Below are positions 3,916 to 25,740 of a stretch of 25,839 nucleotides of DNA, one piece after another. The notes under the pieces were generated by a model. That model worked only from the letters and a program-made list of their open reading frames with translations. It did not search any database and was not told the DNA's origin. This DNA comes from a virus, in the IMG/VR virus record IMGVR_UViG_3300006735_000212, positions 1 through 25,839 of that record. One strand, written 5' to 3'. Position 1 is the stretch's first letter; each line of letters begins with the position of its first letter. The position numbers and the translations under genes are program-made.

Positions 3916-5507
3916 ACGGCATATACTCCCTGAAACACGTCGCACGAGCCATGAACCAAGGCGGCCCCGTAGACGGCGACGACAAGAAGCCCAAACCAAC
4001 AAAATTTAAAACCCCTGCACAAGGGGATTTATTTAAACAGGTGCCTAAGTTTTTACCCAAAATACCGGGGGTAGCGGGTAAATTAGCGTCGGGCTATCAG
4101 TTATTACAACCGCTTATATCCGGGGATGTTCCACGTGAAACATTCGGGTTTCAGGTTCCAGAAAAAGAAGACGCGGAGGAACGTTCTCTTTTGATATTGG
4201 GTTGTTGTAAAACAAAAGAAAAAGATAAGGGTTTAGTATCTGCGGAAGAACTGTACAGCGGTCCGATGTACAAAGCCTTGCAAAAGTATCGTGAAAAAAA
4301 CGACATACCCGAAAACGTGGACATTGCTATATTATCGGCTAAACACGGGTTAATTCGTTTGGACGATAAGATTGAGGATTACGATGTAACGTTTGAAAAA
4401 AACGCTACGTTAAGAAATGAAATGGCGGCAAAGCCGGAGTTTAAAGCCACCATCAAAAAAGCTTTAGATAACTATAAAGACGTGTATGTTGCAGCGGGTG
4501 AGCCGTATCGTGATGTTATTAAGAAAGCGGATGACAATGCCGTGCGTTTTAACCAGTATCCTCAAGGTACACAACGCGCTCAACAGCCCAACCAACTAAA
4601 ACAGTATTTGCATGAAAAACGTTTAGGTGGTGTGGGGCAGCCGGTAAAAGTTAGAAACAAGGCTATTTATGGTACGTTTGACGGTATAGACTCAAAAACC
4701 GGAAAAGCCATGTTTAGTGACGATGAAGCAGGAGCCAGAAAAAACCGGTATAATCTAGAAGATTTAGTACCTTTTGAGCGGTATGCTAAAGGCGGTGGGG
4801 TAGAAACTAAGGATATAGAAAAACTGTTAAAGCCGGTTGCTAAAAGCCTTCCCGGAACCTTGGGCGTAGGGGCTAAAGTATTAGGCACTGCTTTATCCCT
4901 GCCTTACAGTTCGGTTCCTGTTCCGGCATCGGAAAGTGAAATGTTTGGGGCTTTAAAAAGTAACCAAAAAGAAAAAATTAATGCACCGCTTCCGGAAGGT
5001 CAAAAAATAGGGCTTAGGTTAGATATTGATGCGTACACAAAGCACGATGTTTGGGTTCCTACTTTGAAACCGTTAGAGGGTAAAAAACAACTAACGTCCC
5101 ATAGAGCGACAGCCGCCATTAAAAACGCGGATTTAAACTTAAGTGAGTCCATACAAAAGAAAGCAAAAAAGGTAAAGGAAGGTAGCAAAAAAGGTCCTTT
5201 TGCTGTAATAGAAGGTGCGTTTATAGACCGAACAGACGAAGAAAACTATCGTTTAGCGCAACAATATTTAAGCGATCCTGAGTGGGTGCAAGTAGGGTAT
5301 AATCCTAAAAAACACGCTTATTTTTTTGATAGAGAAACGGACGAACCTGTAATAAACGGAGAAGAAGCTATTCAAGTAGGTCCGCTTGTTTTAGTTAAAA
5401 ACCCTGTGTTTGGAAGAAGGGAAGATTTTCTTTATGCTAAAGGCGGTGGGATAAACAGCATGAAGCATATTGCACGAAACATGAATGGAGGGCATGGCTT
5501 TGCTTAG
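3912..5507 (+). CDS. Putative virion protein with embedded DUF6884-like domain
   Basis: A 531-residue multidomain protein whose start overlaps the previous stop (ATGA). Residues 93-165 carry LLILGCCKTK, then AEELYSGP, then ILSAKHGLI (140-148) and a YDVTF segment. I recognise this pattern from the DUF6884 group of small enzyme-like proteins, where the Cys-x-x-Lys and SAKHGL motifs are invariant. The C-terminal part (about 370-500) has LRLDIDAY, WVQVGYNPKKHAYFFDR (from about 458) and IQVGPLVLVKNPVFG (to about 501). This arrangement I associate with phage polyvalent-type proteins. YAKGGG occurs twice (291 and 508), encoded by an identical 18-bp stretch. The N-terminus (SLKHVARAMNQGG) and C-terminus (SMKHIARNMNGG) share a second motif. 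A perfect parS consensus lies inside the gene. Function is unknown; packaging with the neighbouring proteins is inferred. Confidence 0.85.
   Translation: MNGIYSLKHVARAMNQGGPVDGDDKKPKPTKFKTPAQGDLFKQVPKFLPKIPGVAGKLASGYQLLQPLISGDVPRETFGFQVPEKEDAEERSLLILGCCKTKEKDKGLVSAEELYSGPMYKALQKYREKNDIPENVDIAILSAKHGLIRLDDKIEDYDVTFEKNATLRNEMAAKPEFKATIKKALDNYKDVYVAAGEPYRDVIKKADDNAVRFNQYPQGTQRAQQPNQLKQYLHEKRLGGVGQPVKVRNKAIYGTFDGIDSKTGKAMFSDDEAGARKNRYNLEDLVPFERYAKGGGVETKDIEKLLKPVAKSLPGTLGVGAKVLGTALSLPYSSVPVPASESEMFGALKSNQKEKINAPLPEGQKIGLRLDIDAYTKHDVWVPTLKPLEGKKQLTSHRATAAIKNADLNLSESIQKKAKKVKEGSKKGPFAVIEGAFIDRTDEENYRLAQQYLSDPEWVQVGYNPKKHAYFFDRETDEPVINGEEAIQVGPLVLVKNPVFGRREDFLYAKGGGINSMKHIARNMNGGHGFA
4127..4142. promoter_or_regulatory. 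parS site, perfect consensus match
   Basis: TGTTCCACGTGAAACA fits the chromosomal parS consensus TGTTNCACGTGAAACA at every defined position. It lies within the coding sequence (about codons 72-77, the VPRET region) of the DUF6884-like gene. With equal base frequencies the expected number of such matches in 25.8 kb, both strands, is about 5 in 100,000. Bacterial ParB proteins nucleate at this site and spread as a DNA-sliding clamp. No ParA or ParB gene is visible in the window, so a host ParB, or one encoded elsewhere on the phage, would have to bind. The sequence match is direct; function is inferred. Confidence 0.7.
4782..5450 (+). repeat. Pair of 18-bp direct repeats encoding YAKGGG
   Basis: The identical 18 bases TATGCTAAAGGCGGTGGG occur at 4782-4799 and 5433-5450, both in frame in the same gene and both encoding YAKGGG. 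The last domain of the protein lies between them. Exact identity at the DNA level suggests a fairly recent duplication, conversion or strong constraint, and such repeats could allow excision or exchange of the domain between them. Confidence 0.75.
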
Positions 5508-10856: not shown

Positions 10857-11054
10857 ATGGATTATATTCTATTAACCCAGCATATACAGAAAACAATAAA
10901 AGAAAGAAAGTCGATTATTTTAAGTGTTCTGGAAAACAACGGTATTAAAAATATGGAACAATACCGGGAATTGATGGGTGAACTGAACGGTTTAAATTAT
11001 ATTTCACAGGAACTCACGGGCCTGCTAGAAAAACAGGAGCTTTTAGATGAATGA
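10857..11054 (+). CDS. Small helical hypothetical protein before groES
   Basis: 65 residues, mostly helical and coiled-coil-like (TIKERKSIILSVLENN, then ELMGELNGLNYISQELTG). No family is recognised, although short coiled-coil proteins of this size are common at this position in phage head modules. The 29 bases before its ATG are very A+T rich (TATATATTGCATAATTATGG-like) and hold no ribosome-binding site, so a promoter and a weak or leaderless start are possible. It overlaps the GroES-like gene by 8 bases in another frame. Confidence 0.65.
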   Translation: MDYILLTQHIQKTIKERKSIILSVLENNGIKNMEQYRELMGELNGLNYISQELTGLLEKQELLDE

Positions 11055-11466
11055 TACAGTTACTTCTATAAACGAGTCGTATATAGACAAAGATAAACGG
11101 GTTTTAGACCCTTCTTTGTTAGATAAATCACTTATTGAAAGAATGCCGCAGCCTACAGGTTGGAGAATGTTGATTTTACCGTATAGAGGTAAAGCAACAA
11201 CCGAAGGTGGCATACATATTCCAAATCAGGTTCTTGACGACGGTCAAATACAAACTGTTGTCGGGTATATTCTAAGACAAGGCCCCTTAGCCTATAAAGA
11301 TACGGAAAAATTTCCAGATGGACCGTGGTGCGTGGAAAAAGACTGGGTTATTTTTCCTCGTTATGCTGGTTCTAGGTTTCGTATTGAAGGTGGCGAAGTC
11401 CGAATTATAAACGACGACGAGGTTTTAGCTACTATAGCGGACCCTGATGATATCTTATCTTTTTAA
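11047..11466 (+). CDS. GroES-like co-chaperonin (Cpn10 family)
   Basis: 139 residues, longer than bacterial GroES (about 97) because of a 37-residue N-terminal extension. The Cpn10 fold is visible: GWRMLILPYRGKATTEGG (38-55) corresponds to the first strand plus mobile loop, with GGIHIP (54-59) in place of the GGIVL that contacts GroEL. QTVVGYILRQGP (69-80) matches the conserved VVAVGxG region, DWVIFPRYAGSRFRIEGGEV (99-118) matches the VLF..Y.G strand, and INDDEVLATI (121-130) the DDILA end. Phage T4 gp31 is the precedent: it caps host GroEL to fold the major capsid protein. Lying directly upstream of scaffold and capsid genes, this protein probably does the same. AGGAG lies 8 bases before the ATG. 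Confidence 0.85.
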   Translation: MNDTVTSINESYIDKDKRVLDPSLLDKSLIERMPQPTGWRMLILPYRGKATTEGGIHIPNQVLDDGQIQTVVGYILRQGPLAYKDTEKFPDGPWCVEKDWVIFPRYAGSRFRIEGGEVRIINDDEVLATIADPDDILSF

Positions 11467-13611: not shown

Positions 13612-14520
13612 ATGGCTATATCACGCGCTCAACTCGCTAAGGAGTTGGAACCCGGCCTTAACGCCTTGTTTGGGCTGGAATATGACCGATACGAAGCTGA
13701 ACACGCCGAAATATTCGACGAAGAAAGCTCTGATCGTGCATTTGAAGAAGAAGTAATGCTGAGTGGTTTTGGTACTGCTCCAGTAAAAAGTGAAGGCGGA
13801 GCGATTTCTTTTGATGACGCGCAGGAAACTTACACTGCTCGTTACACAATGGAAACGATTGCCCTTGCTTTTAGCATTACGGAAGAAGCAATCGAAGACA
13901 ACTTGTATGACAAGTTAGCTTCGCGGTACACCCGTGCTTTAGCTCGTTCAATGTCGCAAACAAAGCAAATTAAGGCTGCGGCAATTTTGAACAACGCTTT
14001 TACAGCAGGAGCTTCTGCTATTGGTGATGGCGTAGCACTATGTAGTGCTTCACATCCGTCACTAAGCGGAAACCAAAGCAACATCTTAAGCACAGCAGCG
14101 GATCTCAACGAGACTTCTTTGGAGTCTATGATGATCTCTATTGCTGGGTTCACAGATGAAAGAGGGTTGAAGGTAGCAGTTCGTGGAATGAAACTACTTA
14201 TTCCTAAAGAACTTCAGTTCATTACTGAAAGAGTTCTAAACTCTACCCTTCGTTCCGGTACTGCGGACAACGACATTAACGCTATGAAGAGCATGGGTAT
14301 GCTTCCAGAAGGTGCGGTGGTAAACCACTTCCTCACCGACACGGATGCTTACTTTGTTAAGACCGATGCTCCAAATGGCTTCAAGTTGTTTAACAGGACC
14401 CCAATTCGCACCGCTATGGAAGGTGACTTCGACACAGGCAACATGAGATTTAAAGCTCGTGAAAGATATGCCTTCGGAGTTTCTGACTGGCGCTGTGTTT
14501 TCGGAACACCTGGAGCTTAG
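13612..14520 (+). CDS. Major capsid protein (Mu gpT-like, HK97 fold expected)
   Basis: 302 residues. The family features are an N-terminal helix region (LAKELEPGLNALFGLEYDRY), the E-loop zone around FGTAPVKSEGGAISFDDAQE, and a spine helix EEAIEDNLYDKLASRYTRAL. The segment ILNNAFTAGASAIGDGVALC followed by SASHPSLSGNQSNIL and DLNETSLESM is characteristic of the Mu gpT-type head subunit. The C-terminus has the IRTAMEGDFDTGNMRFKARE strand and YAFGVSDWRCVFG. AAGGAGGG lies before the ATG, one of the strongest binding sites in the window, as expected for the most abundant virion protein, and a terminator hairpin follows the stop. Assignment is secure. Confidence 0.93.
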   Translation: MAISRAQLAKELEPGLNALFGLEYDRYEAEHAEIFDEESSDRAFEEEVMLSGFGTAPVKSEGGAISFDDAQETYTARYTMETIALAFSITEEAIEDNLYDKLASRYTRALARSMSQTKQIKAAAILNNAFTAGASAIGDGVALCSASHPSLSGNQSNILSTAADLNETSLESMMISIAGFTDERGLKVAVRGMKLLIPKELQFITERVLNSTLRSGTADNDINAMKSMGMLPEGAVVNHFLTDTDAYFVKTDAPNGFKLFNRTPIRTAMEGDFDTGNMRFKARERYAFGVSDWRCVFGTPGA

Positions 14521-14525
14521 TATAA

Positions 14526-14543
14526 GGGGGCCTTTTGGCCCCC
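14526..14543 (+). terminator. Terminator-type hairpin after the major capsid gene
   Basis: A perfect 7-bp G/C stem, GGGGGCC and GGCCCCC, closes a TTTT loop 6 bases after the capsid stop codon. The downstream sequence AACTTTAACT is only weakly T-rich, so termination may be partial. The usual reason for such a hairpin here is to lower expression of the following tail genes relative to capsid, or to protect the 3' end of the capsid message. Confidence 0.75.
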
Positions 14544-14564
14544 AACTTTAACTGGGAATAATTA

Positions 14565-14623
14565 GCCCTAGCGACTGACCCAGCAGACGCTTACCAAGAC
14601 TCTAGGGCGAAACCTTTGGTAAG
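14565..14623 (+). promoter_or_regulatory. Interleaved inverted repeats, possible RNA pseudoknot over a ribosome-binding site
   Basis: Two perfect inverted repeats cross each other. Repeat A pairs 14565-14571 (GCCCTAG) with 14602-14608 (CTAGGGC). Repeat B pairs 14590-14597 (CTTACCAA) with 14616-14623 (TTGGTAAG). The order A, B, A', B' is that of an H-type pseudoknot, or of two mutually exclusive stems. The last three bases of B' are the first three of the AAGGAGG site (14621-14627) of the gene starting at 14635. Stem B would therefore partly hide the binding site. This suggests translational control of the next gene. I do not recognise a known riboswitch family here. Confidence 0.5.
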
Positions 14624-14634
14624 GAGGAATTACA

Positions 14635-15351
14635 ATGGCAGTTCATTTTACTGGCCCTATTCTACACGCAGGTAAAGACGGCAACAGACAATGGTTTGAA
14701 AACCTTCCTGCTTCTCAAAACCCAGATTATCTTACTTATATGGACGATTTTACTGGGATTGCTTTAGATACAACTAATGACTGGACTCTTATAAAAGACA
14801 GTTCAGCTACGGCTGCATTAGGTGCAGACGCTGAAAACGGTACATTAGTTCTAACTTCGCAAGCTACTACAGACAATGACGGAGCTTCTGTACAAGGTAA
14901 CGAAATTTTTGCCGTATCTTCTGGACGTGACATTTGGTTTGAAACCAAGTTGTTTGTTACAGATGCAGAAGGCGATGCGATGGATGTTTGTGTTGGCCTA
15001 ACTGTAAACTTTGCAACTAACCCAGAAGCTATGCTGACGGCTGCTGACCGAATTGTTTTTCAGGTAGATGATGGCGATAGCAATATTGATTGTGTTACTG
15101 AAAAAGATGGCACAGCAACCACTACTGATTCTGGCGTAGACATTGCAAGTGGTACGTATGTAACGCTTGGTTTTCATGTAAAAAGCACAGGAAGTGTAGA
15201 GTTTTTTGTAAACAGAAATAAAGTAGCTACACATACAGCCAATATTCCTGATGATGAAAATCTTGCTATAGGTGCAATGGAACTTTCTGGTTCAGCTACC
15301 GGAACTAAGTCAATGACTATTGACTATCTGCTTGCTTCTCAAAACAGATAA
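14635..15351 (+). CDS. Probable virion protein with lectin-like (jelly-roll) fold
   Basis: 238 residues, beta-rich and without membrane segments. The pattern YMDDFTGIALDTTNDWTLIK, a GTLVLTSQATTDNDG strand, FETKLFVTDAEGDAMDVCVG, GTYVTLGFHVKSTGSVEFFV and a closing MTIDYLLASQ resembles concanavalin-like sandwich domains seen in marine phage structural proteins. The gene has a strong AAGGAGG site and follows the capsid gene and its terminator, within a structured leader that may regulate it. A decoration or surface-binding role is inferred. Confidence 0.7.
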   Translation: MAVHFTGPILHAGKDGNRQWFENLPASQNPDYLTYMDDFTGIALDTTNDWTLIKDSSATAALGADAENGTLVLTSQATTDNDGASVQGNEIFAVSSGRDIWFETKLFVTDAEGDAMDVCVGLTVNFATNPEAMLTAADRIVFQVDDGDSNIDCVTEKDGTATTTDSGVDIASGTYVTLGFHVKSTGSVEFFVNRNKVATHTANIPDDENLAIGAMELSGSATGTKSMTIDYLLASQNR

Positions 15352-22404: not shown

Positions 22405-24276
22405 ATGACTAGTAGTTATACCGTAAACAATGGACTCGAAAAACCTGAAGCAGGAGATCAAGAGGGTGCGTGGGGTGGCACACTTAATACTAACTTTGAC
22501 ATTATTGACCGGGTATTGTCTGGCGTTGGTTCTGTTTCACTATCTGGGACTACTCACACTTTAACCACTACTGACGGTACGTTAACCGATGGTATGTATC
22601 GGGTACTTCTGTTTACAGGCGCATTGGGTGCTAACAACACAGTCACTATTAGCCCTAACGACCAAGACAAACTATATTTTATAGTCAACAATACGACTGA
22701 TAGTGGTAGTAGTGGGCCGTACTCTGTCATTATAAAACAGGGTACAGGAGCTACTGTTACGGTAGAAAATGGTCGAGCCGATATTGTTTATGCAGATGGC
22801 GCAGGTTCTGGTGCTGCGGTAGTTAGTCTTGGTACTGAAATAGGACAAAGAGCATTTGATTTATATACGTATACTGCAACTGCGGGGCAAACTACTTTTA
22901 CGGGGTCAGATACATCAAGTAAAACTTTAGCTTATAGCGCAGGTAATTTATTTGTAACGCTAAACGGTGTGACTTTAGAAAACGGTACGGATTACACAGC
23001 TACTAATGGCACGAGTGTAGTGTTAACCGATGCTGCAACAGTAGGTGATGAGTTAAATATCTACGCCTTTAATGCGTTTTCAGTTGCAAATGTAACTACA
23101 GCTAGTGGTGATTTTAGTATTGGTGATGATCTTAGTTTTACAAGTGACGGTGCAATCATTAACATGGGTGCGGATAGTGATGTCACTATAACTCATAATG
23201 CTGACGAAGGTATCACGCTAAACAGCAAAGATATTAGTGGCGTTAGTTCCATTAATGGTGGGCAAGTTGGAGGAAGCCGCAATTTTATTTACAACGGCGA
23301 TATGGCAATTTGTCAAAGAGCCACCTCGGTAGCTGATGTAGGAGGATCGTCAGGATATTTTGTGCAAGACAGATGGAGAAGTTCATCAGCAAATATGGAA
23401 GGACGTTTTACAATGTCCCAAGACACAGAAACTCCAGATGGTTTTGCGAACAGTATGAAAATTGATTGTACGACAGCAGAGACAAGTACTCCTGATGTAA
23501 ATGAATATCTTTTAATCGAGCAACGCTTTGAAGGGTTAGATTTGCAATCGCTCAATAAAGGGGATGCTCAAGCAAAAGCATTAACGGTTTCCTTCTACGT
23601 GCGCTCACCTAAAACTGGAGTACACACAGTGTCTTTGTACGATGAGTCTAATTCTCGAATTATTGGCTCAACCTATACAATCGCATCGGCAGACACATGG
23701 GAGAAACACTCGGTATCATTTGCAGGAGATACTAGCGGGGCTATCCCAGACGACAGTACAGTAGGGTTGGCATTATGGTTTTGGTTGTTAGCGGGTAGCG
23801 ATTATACAGGAGGCACTTTTAACACATCTTGGGCTTCTTACACAGCCGCTAATACTTGTAATAGTAGTCAAGTTAATGTGTTGGATAATACATCAAACAA
23901 CTTTTACCTAACTGGAGTTCAAATGGAGCTTGGAGACACCGCGAGTATTTTTCAAAACGAGAGTTATGGCGAAAATTTAGCTCGATGCCAACGATATTAT
24001 CAGATAGTTGGGTTAAACACCGCAGCAGGCAATCAATCAAACAATATGTATTACACATCTTTAGGTTTGTCTCCATCTATGAACCATGACCCTACAATCG
24101 AAGCAAGTTATGCGCATGGCTTGCTTTCGGGAAATTTTCAAACGCGAGTTACTTCCACTTTTGGTAATGGAGTGACTTTGATTGATTCAACTCCTGAATC
24201 AGTAGTTGTGCGAGGTGGGACAAGTAGTTCCTACAATTGGATAAGGGGTAATTTACATATGGAAGCAGAACTATGA
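22405..24276 (+). CDS. Tail fibre / receptor-binding protein (T7 gp17-like bulb module)
   Basis: 623 residues directly following the first fibre. The N-terminal 150 residues are a paralogue of the previous fibre's N-terminus (LSGTTHTLTTTDGTLTDGMY, FIVNN). Residues about 152-225 (LYTYTATAGQTTF, LFVTLNGVTLENGTDYTATN, LNIYAFNAF) resemble the T7 tail-fibre type repeat. The SIGDDL...GADSDVT shaft module follows. The C-terminal part, from FIYNGDMAICQRATSV, has DRWR, SFYVRSPKTGVHTVSLYDES and GVQMELGDTASIF, a carbohydrate-binding-like sandwich found in marine phage fibres. It ends NLHMEAEL. It has no S74 domain. ATGA overlap leads to the partner gene at 24273. Confidence 0.85.
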   Translation: MTSSYTVNNGLEKPEAGDQEGAWGGTLNTNFDIIDRVLSGVGSVSLSGTTHTLTTTDGTLTDGMYRVLLFTGALGANNTVTISPNDQDKLYFIVNNTTDSGSSGPYSVIIKQGTGATVTVENGRADIVYADGAGSGAAVVSLGTEIGQRAFDLYTYTATAGQTTFTGSDTSSKTLAYSAGNLFVTLNGVTLENGTDYTATNGTSVVLTDAATVGDELNIYAFNAFSVANVTTASGDFSIGDDLSFTSDGAIINMGADSDVTITHNADEGITLNSKDISGVSSINGGQVGGSRNFIYNGDMAICQRATSVADVGGSSGYFVQDRWRSSSANMEGRFTMSQDTETPDGFANSMKIDCTTAETSTPDVNEYLLIEQRFEGLDLQSLNKGDAQAKALTVSFYVRSPKTGVHTVSLYDESNSRIIGSTYTIASADTWEKHSVSFAGDTSGAIPDDSTVGLALWFWLLAGSDYTGGTFNTSWASYTAANTCNSSQVNVLDNTSNNFYLTGVQMELGDTASIFQNESYGENLARCQRYYQIVGLNTAAGNQSNNMYYTSLGLSPSMNHDPTIEASYAHGLLSGNFQTRVTSTFGNGVTLIDSTPESVVVRGGTSSSYNWIRGNLHMEAEL

Positions 24277-24461
24277 AAATTATTTCAGCTAAATATGTTC
24301 ATGATAGGTTAATGGAAAAAAATTGTAGTATTAATGTGGTTATTCAAGTCACAGAGGGTCAAACAAAAACAATTCATGTTCCGTTGAAAGAAAACAATAA
24401 ACATTATCGTGCTATCCAAGATTGGGTAGCAGCAGGAAATACAATAGCGGAAGCAGACTAA
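24273..24461 (+). CDS. Small fibre-partner protein, copy 1
   Basis: 62 residues, ATGA overlap with the fibre gene. KIISAKYVHDRLMEKNCSIN is followed by VVIQVTEGQTKTIHVPLKEN and a closing helix HYRAIQDWVAAGNTIAEAD. It is a paralogue of the protein at 25564-25740 (shared SAKY/TAAKY opening, VP(L/I), Y R xx Q.WVA.GNTIA(E/D)AD end). Position behind each fibre suggests a fibre chaperone or tip cap. Its TAA shares a base with the next ATG. Confidence 0.75.
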   Translation: MKIISAKYVHDRLMEKNCSINVVIQVTEGQTKTIHVPLKENNKHYRAIQDWVAAGNTIAEAD

Positions 24462-25567
24462 TGGTTAGTAAAGCAAGAAAAGCAGCAGCAGACGCATCGT
24501 TTCCTCAGAGAAGAAAAAACCATTTAATTAATGGGGATTTTCAAATATCTGCACGACATGGAACTAATAAAGTAATATCAACTTCAGTTCCAAATAACAG
24601 CGATGATAATTATTGTTTGCCCGATAGGTGGTTATTACTAAGCGATGGTAACGATATAGTAGACCCTCAATTAGTAGATGTTACTAGCCCAGATAATGCT
24701 AAATATAGTCTAGCATTAGAAGTAGAAACAGCAGATAAAAAGTTTGGTGTAGTACAAATAATAACAAACCAAAATTCCGTACCTATTATTGGTAATACAG
24801 TGACGTTATCTTTCCAAGCTAAAGTTAGCAACACAACAAGATTAGATGATGTTAGAGCAGCTATTGTCACATGGTCTGGTACAGCAGATGCTCCAACAAG
24901 TGACTTAGTAAACGCTTGGAATGGGGCTGATACAAACTTTTCTGTTGTAACTAATTGGACTTTAGAGAATACTCCTGCAAATTTAAGCGTAACTACAAGT
25001 TGGGCTAAATACAGTGTTACAGGAGCCTTGGATGCTAGTAGCGGTACAAATGTAGCCGTTATGATTTGGTCAAACAGCGTAGACAATGATGCTGATGATA
25101 TATTATACATAGGCCAATGTCAGCTAGAATTAGGTAATGTAGCGACAGATTTTGAATTTGTGAACAGAGACAACGAAGGTCAATTGTGTCTAGCCCATTA
25201 TTATGATTCCCGTAATTCTTATACATCGGGACAAGATATGTACAACGGCACAACAAAAGTTGTTACATATCAAGCCGCAGGGATAATGCAGATGTGGGGG
25301 TGGAATATTGGTGCAGCTAATCAATATAGGTGGCTAACAGAAACTAATCCTACCATGATGCATAAAACACCTACTATGACTTTATTTGACAGTGCAGGTA
25401 CTTCTGGAAAAATTACTCGTTGGTCTTCTACTGGAGGAAGTGCTATTAATGGAAATGACCCTTATGGAACAGTAGTTACTGCTGCAAGGTTTCATATAAA
25501 CACTTGGACTTCATTAGGGGCTACATATGGGTGGCATGCAATGGTTGTATTGGAGGCAGAATTATGA
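24461..25567 (+). CDS. Short tail fibre / receptor-binding protein, second cassette
   Basis: 368 residues from the ATG at 24461, chosen because it overlaps the preceding stop by one base; the frame is open to 24422 but that start is buried in the previous gene. It lacks the N-terminal attachment module of the two larger fibres and starts almost at once with the sandwich domain (KNHLINGDFQISARHGTNKV, DRWLLLSDGNDIVD, TVTLSFQAKVSNTTR, GQCQLELGNVATDFEFVNRD). It ends YGWHAMVVLEAEL, the same EAEL ending as the 22405 fibre. Spot samples show it is A+T richer than terL (for example 37% G+C in 25201-25260 against 55% in 661-720), which fits a separate origin. It probably assembles onto another virion protein. 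Confidence 0.8.
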   Translation: MVSKARKAAADASFPQRRKNHLINGDFQISARHGTNKVISTSVPNNSDDNYCLPDRWLLLSDGNDIVDPQLVDVTSPDNAKYSLALEVETADKKFGVVQIITNQNSVPIIGNTVTLSFQAKVSNTTRLDDVRAAIVTWSGTADAPTSDLVNAWNGADTNFSVVTNWTLENTPANLSVTTSWAKYSVTGALDASSGTNVAVMIWSNSVDNDADDILYIGQCQLELGNVATDFEFVNRDNEGQLCLAHYYDSRNSYTSGQDMYNGTTKVVTYQAAGIMQMWGWNIGAANQYRWLTETNPTMMHKTPTMTLFDSAGTSGKITRWSSTGGSAINGNDPYGTVVTAARFHINTWTSLGATYGWHAMVVLEAEL

Positions 25568-25740
25568 CAATTACCGCAGCAAAATATGGGCGACCTTTGA
25601 TGGACGAAACAAAATCACATAATGTAATTGTAACTATGGATGGTGTTGTTAAGTATGTTCCTATAGATATTGAGAATAGAGATTACAGAAAACTACAAGC
25701 ATGGGTAGCACAAGGTAACACAATAGCGGATGCCGACTAA
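25564..25740 (+). CDS. Small fibre-partner protein, copy 2
   Basis: 58 residues; the ATG at 25564 overlaps the fibre stop (ATGA), as for copy 1. An upstream in-frame start at 25504 lies inside the fibre and is rejected. Sequence: TITAAKYGRPLMDETKSHNV, IVTMDGVVKYVPIDIENRDY, then RKLQAWVAQGNTIADAD. It is the paralogue of the 24273 protein. TAATG links it to the next gene. Confidence 0.75.
   Translation: MTITAAKYGRPLMDETKSHNVIVTMDGVVKYVPIDIENRDYRKLQAWVAQGNTIADAD

Follow-up and report, generated by a model that had tools for sequence, protein, structure and literature searches.

Autoregulatory pseudoknots in the leaders of T4 gene 32 and of the ribosomal proteins S15 and S4 exert translational control over products that are needed in a fixed amount. 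Closer to the leader considered here is the Mu-gpT-DE RNA (Rfam RF03012), filed by Rfam as 'Gene; sRNA' with no known role; its model contains just two helices, P1 and P2, and extends no further than the AUG. In a paper on structure prediction it is listed among the families whose database structure has no covarying pairs (PMC7657543). Our subject is a leader within a 25,839-nucleotide stretch of viral DNA (positions 1 to 25,839 of the IMG/VR record IMGVR_UViG_3300006735_000212, below referred to as the window). Most relatives of the gene behind this leader carry Mu-gpT-DE RNA at the same place, with RF03012 matches of 52.4, 62.0 and 58.2 bits in the loci L028, L091 and L437, respectively; the window itself gave no match to this model, neither at the gathering score nor at E-values up to 10. 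The leader is very probably a cis-acting translational operator of a marine phage cement-protein gene, the folding of its knot perhaps being shifted by a trans-acting factor.

The leader spans the distance from the stop of the major capsid protein gene at 14520 to the ATG of the next gene at 14635, on the plus strand, like its two neighbouring genes and the hairpin and helix arms described below. The capsid gene (13612-14520) is Mu gpT-like (Pfam Phage_capsid_4, 2e-15; Mu-like_gpT, 2.7e-4; PHROG major head protein), and the controlled gene (14635-15351) encodes a putative head decoration/cement protein of 238 aa, judging from its position after the capsid gene and its predicted fold. The original prediction placed the leader between a capsid terminator hairpin and a structural gene. 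The two neighbouring genes agree with this description, but the hairpin GGGGGCC-TTTT-GGCCCCC (14526-14543) that follows the capsid gene has no U-run, and a terminator scan found no terminators in the window, this hairpin included; the hairpin is therefore not terminator-like, and a terminator function was rejected for this window.

In the 5' to 3' direction the leader reads CTGGG, GCCCTAG, GA, CTG(ACCCAG)CAG, AC, CTTACCAA, GACT, CTAGGGC, GAAACCT, TTGGTAAG, GAGG, ATG. Stem A, or P1, is formed by GCCCTAG (14565-14571) and CTAGGGC (14602-14608), and stem B by CTTACCAA (14590-14597) and TTGGTAAG (14616-14623), all four arms being supported by both the sequence and the covariation. As had been predicted, these stems are perfect (7 and 8 bp) and cross each other in the order A5'-B5'-A3'-B3' (14565-14623); B reaches nine pairs when the flanking G-U pair 14598/14615 is included. 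The 3' arm of B overlaps the ribosome-binding site. Of the Shine-Dalgarno sequence AAGGAGG (14621-14627, 7 nt 5' of the ATG) it pairs AAG and leaves GAGG free, in line with the claim that the first bases of the site are engaged. P1 surrounds the hairpin P2, composed of CTG (14575-14577), invariant in an alignment of 51 leaders (A1, see below), and CAG (14584-14586), after which the same alignment has a conserved AC. The third helix, P0, was absent from the original prediction: the upstream strand CTGGG (14552-14556) pairs with CCCAG inside the P2 loop (14579-14583) and forms a second pseudoknot. The partners in the other pseudoknot, B, are the strand between P2 and the 3' arm of P1 and the bases running into the Shine-Dalgarno sequence. 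Finally, GAC at 14598-14600 together with the preceding A gives a conserved AGA 5' of the 3' arm of P1 (invariant columns A50, G51 and A52 of A1).

One of 3000 dinucleotide shuffles made from the 82-nt leader contained perfect crossing stems as long as these (at least 7 and at least 8 bp); crossing stems of that size are present at two other places on the plus strand of the window. The nested minimum free energy of the leader is unremarkable in comparison with shuffles (z -1.57), as expected for a pseudoknot. Chance inverted repeats are ruled out by the shuffles taken together with the covariation, which was assessed as follows. A DNA pattern derived from the core matched at least 119 stretches in IMG/VR, and these yielded at least 81-90 distinct leaders, depending on trimming. 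The patterns used for fetching prescribed some bases in one arm of P0 and in one arm of B, never any in the partner arm, and hence the pairing was not built in. In A1, the arms match in 97.8% of the cells of stem A and in 93.6% of those of stem B. The check suggested with the original prediction was a search for compensatory changes in the two stems, and these were indeed present: there were 39 two-sided cells against 5.7 ± 2.0 in shuffled controls (0 of 500 as high), and controls with slid helices had 6-16 two-sided changed cells. All three helices, P0, A and B, are kept with compensatory changes in 91 related leaders of the window form (type 1). These had been chosen by a descriptor without a P0 requirement, and in every one of the 91 P0 has 5 bp or more, in nine arm-pair forms (e.g., CTGGG/CCCAG, CCGGG/CCCGG, CTAGG/CCTAG, CCAAG/CTTGG, CCTAG/CTAGG). 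Among 110 candidate sites, some of which lie within coding sequence and are not leaders, P0 was present at 98, compared with a mean of 14.8 when the loops were shuffled.

The letters of the helices drift, and the unpaired core is near-invariant: GA 5' of P2, AC 3' of P2 and AGA 5' of the 3' arm of P1. P2 itself has variants (CCG/CGG in the freshwater phage L467, longer helices in L082, L083 and others). Copies in front of genes of this kind, a further check suggested with the original prediction, were found in many phages; all 82 distinct pattern matches listed precede genes starting M-x-x-T/S-x-F-x-G or similar, five of the start codons having been corrected by eye. Type-1 leaders accept GTG starts and many second codons, as should be the case if the start codon is not used by the knot.

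Sixteen leaders are more diverged. Among them are those of the window, Pelagibacter phage HTVC023P (L370), phage DSL-LC04 (L369), the freshwater phage mentioned above (L467), and the contigs L082, L093, L096, L097, L128, L137, L150, L155 and L156, chosen by their capsid genes. Most of their helix letters are different (11-15 different arm pairs per helix). With their own arms they pair in 78 of 78 cells of P0, 127 of 128 of P1 and 101 of 102 of B (100, 99 and 99%; L354, with 4 of 5 B pairs, and L083 were left out of this count), against 54, 59 and 49% with arms swapped between leaders, although part of this excess is due to selection, the arms having been picked by eye; the order and position of the helices are the stronger point here. 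For P1 and P2 a covariance model was built from A1, L369 and L370 being among its sequences; it detected the unseen leaders of L155 (2.8e-9), L354 (2e-7) and L467 (1.9e-5), and an Rfam scan of the most diverged leaders returned nothing relevant. In HTVC023P, DSL-LC04 and L155, stem B merely abuts the Shine-Dalgarno sequence. In the leader at 1527-1632 of the cyanophage MinM2 (Synechococcus; L462), GACCCGGGG/CCCCGGGTC is crossed by CCGTCT/AGACGG over the Shine-Dalgarno sequence. This leader is possibly a further relative, with a possible P1 and a B covering the Shine-Dalgarno sequence, but it has no recognisable P2 core and was excluded from the counts.

In the Mu-gpT-DE form (type 2) the Shine-Dalgarno sequence is held in P1, and the second pseudoknot falls on the AUG and codon 2, to which the loop is complementary (AGCCA/AUGGCU, ACCCA/AUGGGU, GCUCA/AUGAGC, GGUCA/AUGACC). 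When the 5-mer of the loop is set against positions 2-6 of the initiation region across 97 distinct leaders, 455 of 485 cells are paired (the count is one of sequences and not of independent events), whereas shuffling the initiation regions among the leaders gave 413.5 ± 4.4 pairs, with a maximum of 428 in 2000. A scan built to test this idea on loops with an altered third base retrieved GCTCA with ATGAGC, GGTCA with ATGACC and GCTCA with ATGGGC, each with 5/5 pairs (G-U allowed); its remaining matches were dismissed by gene context as unrelated chance matches. P1 of type 2 also covaries, being CCTTG/CAAGG in 26 leaders versus the CCTG/CAGG type in most others. The start-codon pseudoknot, missing from the Rfam model, is new here, and so is the type-1 form with its two interlocked pseudoknots, undetected by any Rfam model. 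A contig scan for Mu-gpT-DE yielded mostly chance matches, those in L391, L395, L401, L405, L407 and L416 being real by gene context. In L284 the Mu-gpT-DE leader is present twice, at a distance of 123 nt (4694-4844), and one of the copies is followed by a truncated ORF of 25 codons (MANTTFTGPVISNNGFQVAPVSFYY); the doubled leader looks like the outcome of a partial duplication.

The Rfam label 'Gene; sRNA' would agree with a trans-acting small RNA or an element of the 3'-UTR of the capsid gene, but the helix partners located in the downstream Shine-Dalgarno sequence, start codon and codon 2 covary, which argues for action in cis and leaves such a role very improbable. The orphan Rfam RNA thus gains a suggested function: instead of an sRNA it would be a leader that controls translation in cis. 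Another role to be weighed is that of a 5'-end stabiliser protecting an abundant late mRNA against decay, with the overlap of the ribosome-binding site as a by-product. It could draw on a TATNNT element, likely a promoter, that ends 8-9 nt 5' of P1 in 43 of the 97 distinct Mu-gpT-DE leaders, so that the transcript may begin roughly where the RNA element begins. Yet a stabiliser has no need for a start-codon pairing that tracks codon 2 by compensatory changes. Moreover, the window has no terminator-like site and no TATNNT was seen in it just 5' of P0; its leader may share a longer mRNA with the capsid gene. We therefore consider stabilisation quite unlikely.

Both forms consist of P1, GA, P2, AC, a loop, AGA and the 3' arm of P1, and both direct the second pseudoknot from that loop to the initiation region: beside or into the Shine-Dalgarno sequence in type 1, and to the AUG and codon 2 in type 2. 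Near-identical proteins are found behind different forms (L227 and L106, 91% identity; the window and L020, 90%). Given the shared core and these proteins, the two forms should be regarded as variants of one cis-acting translational operator. The leader of L354, combining P0, a free Shine-Dalgarno sequence and a 4-bp GCCA/UGGC pairing with the start codon, may be an intermediate between them. Exchange of the forms between near-identical proteins, together with the overlap of the ribosome-binding site, could also be accounted for by a fixed throttle without a ligand, i.e., by constantly lowered initiation matching the cement to the capsid protein; for this purpose simple hairpins over the Shine-Dalgarno sequence suffice, and neither two pseudoknots nor near-invariant unpaired bases are needed, which makes a fixed throttle an unlikely explanation.

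The operator seems to be common among these phages. We judged 79 sufficiently long loci chosen by capsid homology alone, regardless of the leader: regular expressions assigned 59 to type 2 and 4 to type 1 (63 in total), and inspection by eye placed 13 of the 16 negative loci in the family (L151 as type 2; L155 and eleven others as type-1-like), no family leader being seen in L116, L135 and L142. With 76 of 79 capsid loci bearing one of the forms by either approach, RNA control of the head-cement supply is probably a general feature of this group. Of the cultured relatives, CRP-901 and CRP-902 carry type 2, and type 1 is found in HTVC023P and DSL-LC04; no such leader was seen by eye in Pelagibacter phage HTVC027P, where a different gene follows the capsid gene, in Alcaligenes phage QDWS535 or in Caulobacter phage GB2A.

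The 238-aa protein of the window has a match to Pfam SO2946-like_C (7.5e-6) just under the cut-off and a predicted concanavalin-like beta-sandwich with a low-confidence N-terminus. Its body differs from that of the commonest family behind these leaders, which occupies the same genomic position. For this sister family, the predicted fold (mean pLDDT 74.5) has its best PDB matches in a capsid chain of Ralstonia phage GP4 (E 6e-4), a capsid chain of cyanophage Pam1 and KHP30/KHP40 chains (E 1.7e-3). In DSL-LC04 the gene behind the leader is annotated as encoding a cement protein. In the cement protein of Pam1, an extended N-terminal loop contacts the capsid protein (PMC9698820); a contact of this kind, by analogy, may account for the common T-x-F-S-G-P start. 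Several other ORFs of the window deserve mention. The ORF at 11047-11466, near the head genes, resembles the co-chaperonin GroES, which is annotated there in HTVC023P, HTVC027P and DSL-LC04, and the ORF at 16479-16952, among the structural genes, encodes a basic glycine-rich protein with MMGGGAVKKTGAKR repeats. Each of two related ORFs of about 60 aa (24273-24461 and 25567-25740) comes after a long ORF that is tail-fibre-like, and the C-termini of the long ORFs are similar; this looks like a duplicated gene pair.

On the level of sequence comparison, the existence of the helices and the location of B at the ribosome-binding site can be taken as demonstrated by covariation. They support the original reading of the leader as an element of translational control, and such control, deduced from the anatomy, is in our opinion highly probable. 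The folded knot would block binding of the 30S subunit, translation of the cement gene would depend on whether the knot is folded or not, and a trans-acting factor would shift the balance between the two states; no alternative 'open' fold of the leader was identified. Since B covers only AAG in the window and abuts the Shine-Dalgarno sequence in HTVC023P, DSL-LC04 and L155, its effect might be tuning or stabilising rather than blocking. As for the factor, our leading guess, a tentative one, is a virion protein (cement or capsid) providing feedback. Near-identical proteins stand behind both forms, so a protein ligand would need to read the shared core.

The main alternative for the factor is a small molecule, which we hold to be rather unlikely. 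The leader might accordingly be imagined as a riboswitch that senses a metabolite or an ion, uses a pseudoknot as its expression platform and was taken over by the phage for the timing of late gene expression. An H-type pseudoknot entering the Shine-Dalgarno sequence is the layout of the SAM-II and preQ1 classes, the near-invariant unpaired core among drifting helices is suggestive, and the near-identical proteins behind both forms look as if one signal were read by both. At the same time, no Rfam riboswitch matched even at permissive thresholds, and in the sets examined the leader precedes phage cement-type genes only and no metabolic gene; thus, a known riboswitch is rejected, there being no Rfam model match in the window, and a riboswitch of any class appears doubtful. 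The earlier remark that the leader was not recognised as a described riboswitch family agrees with these scans as far as riboswitches are concerned, but clade-mates do carry a described RNA, RF03012, at the same place and with the same core. Returning to the translational operator, we could also suppose, with some reserve, that the switches of this RNA family monitor head assembly via the common core, by way of free cement or capsid protein or of some shared signal, and have two interchangeable outputs, one on the Shine-Dalgarno side and the other on the start codon and codon 2. RNA control of the cement supply is testable in cultured phages, namely Roseobacter phage CRP-901 and Pelagibacter phage HTVC023P.

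Compared with known systems, the leader resembles those of T4 gene 32, S15 and S4 in having a pseudoknot before a gene for a product required in fixed quantity; no sequence kinship is apparent, and autoregulation is for the present leader a hypothesis only. With the SAM-II and preQ1 translational riboswitches it shares an H-type pseudoknot extending by its 3' strand to the Shine-Dalgarno region, and differs from them in the lack of a covariance-model match, in the genes concerned and in its two interlocked pseudoknots. From Mu-gpT-DE the window leader differs in the extra helix P0, in a P2 of 3 bp and in the position of B at the Shine-Dalgarno sequence rather than at the start codon. Furthermore, the 3' strand of P1 in Mu-gpT-DE is the CAGG of the Shine-Dalgarno sequence, whereas in the window the 3' arm CTAGGGC (14602-14608) lies apart from it (14621-14627), and the Mu-gpT-DE loop engages the start codon together with codon 2, whereas the window loop CTTACCAA pairs with TTGGTAAG adjacent to the Shine-Dalgarno sequence. 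Nevertheless, the window leader has with Mu-gpT-DE in common the slot after a gpT-type capsid gene and before a cement-type gene, a P2 enclosed by P1 and flanked by GA (5') and AC (3'), the AGA that precedes the 3' arm of P1, the same or near-identical downstream proteins, and a second pseudoknot in which the corresponding loop reaches the initiation region.
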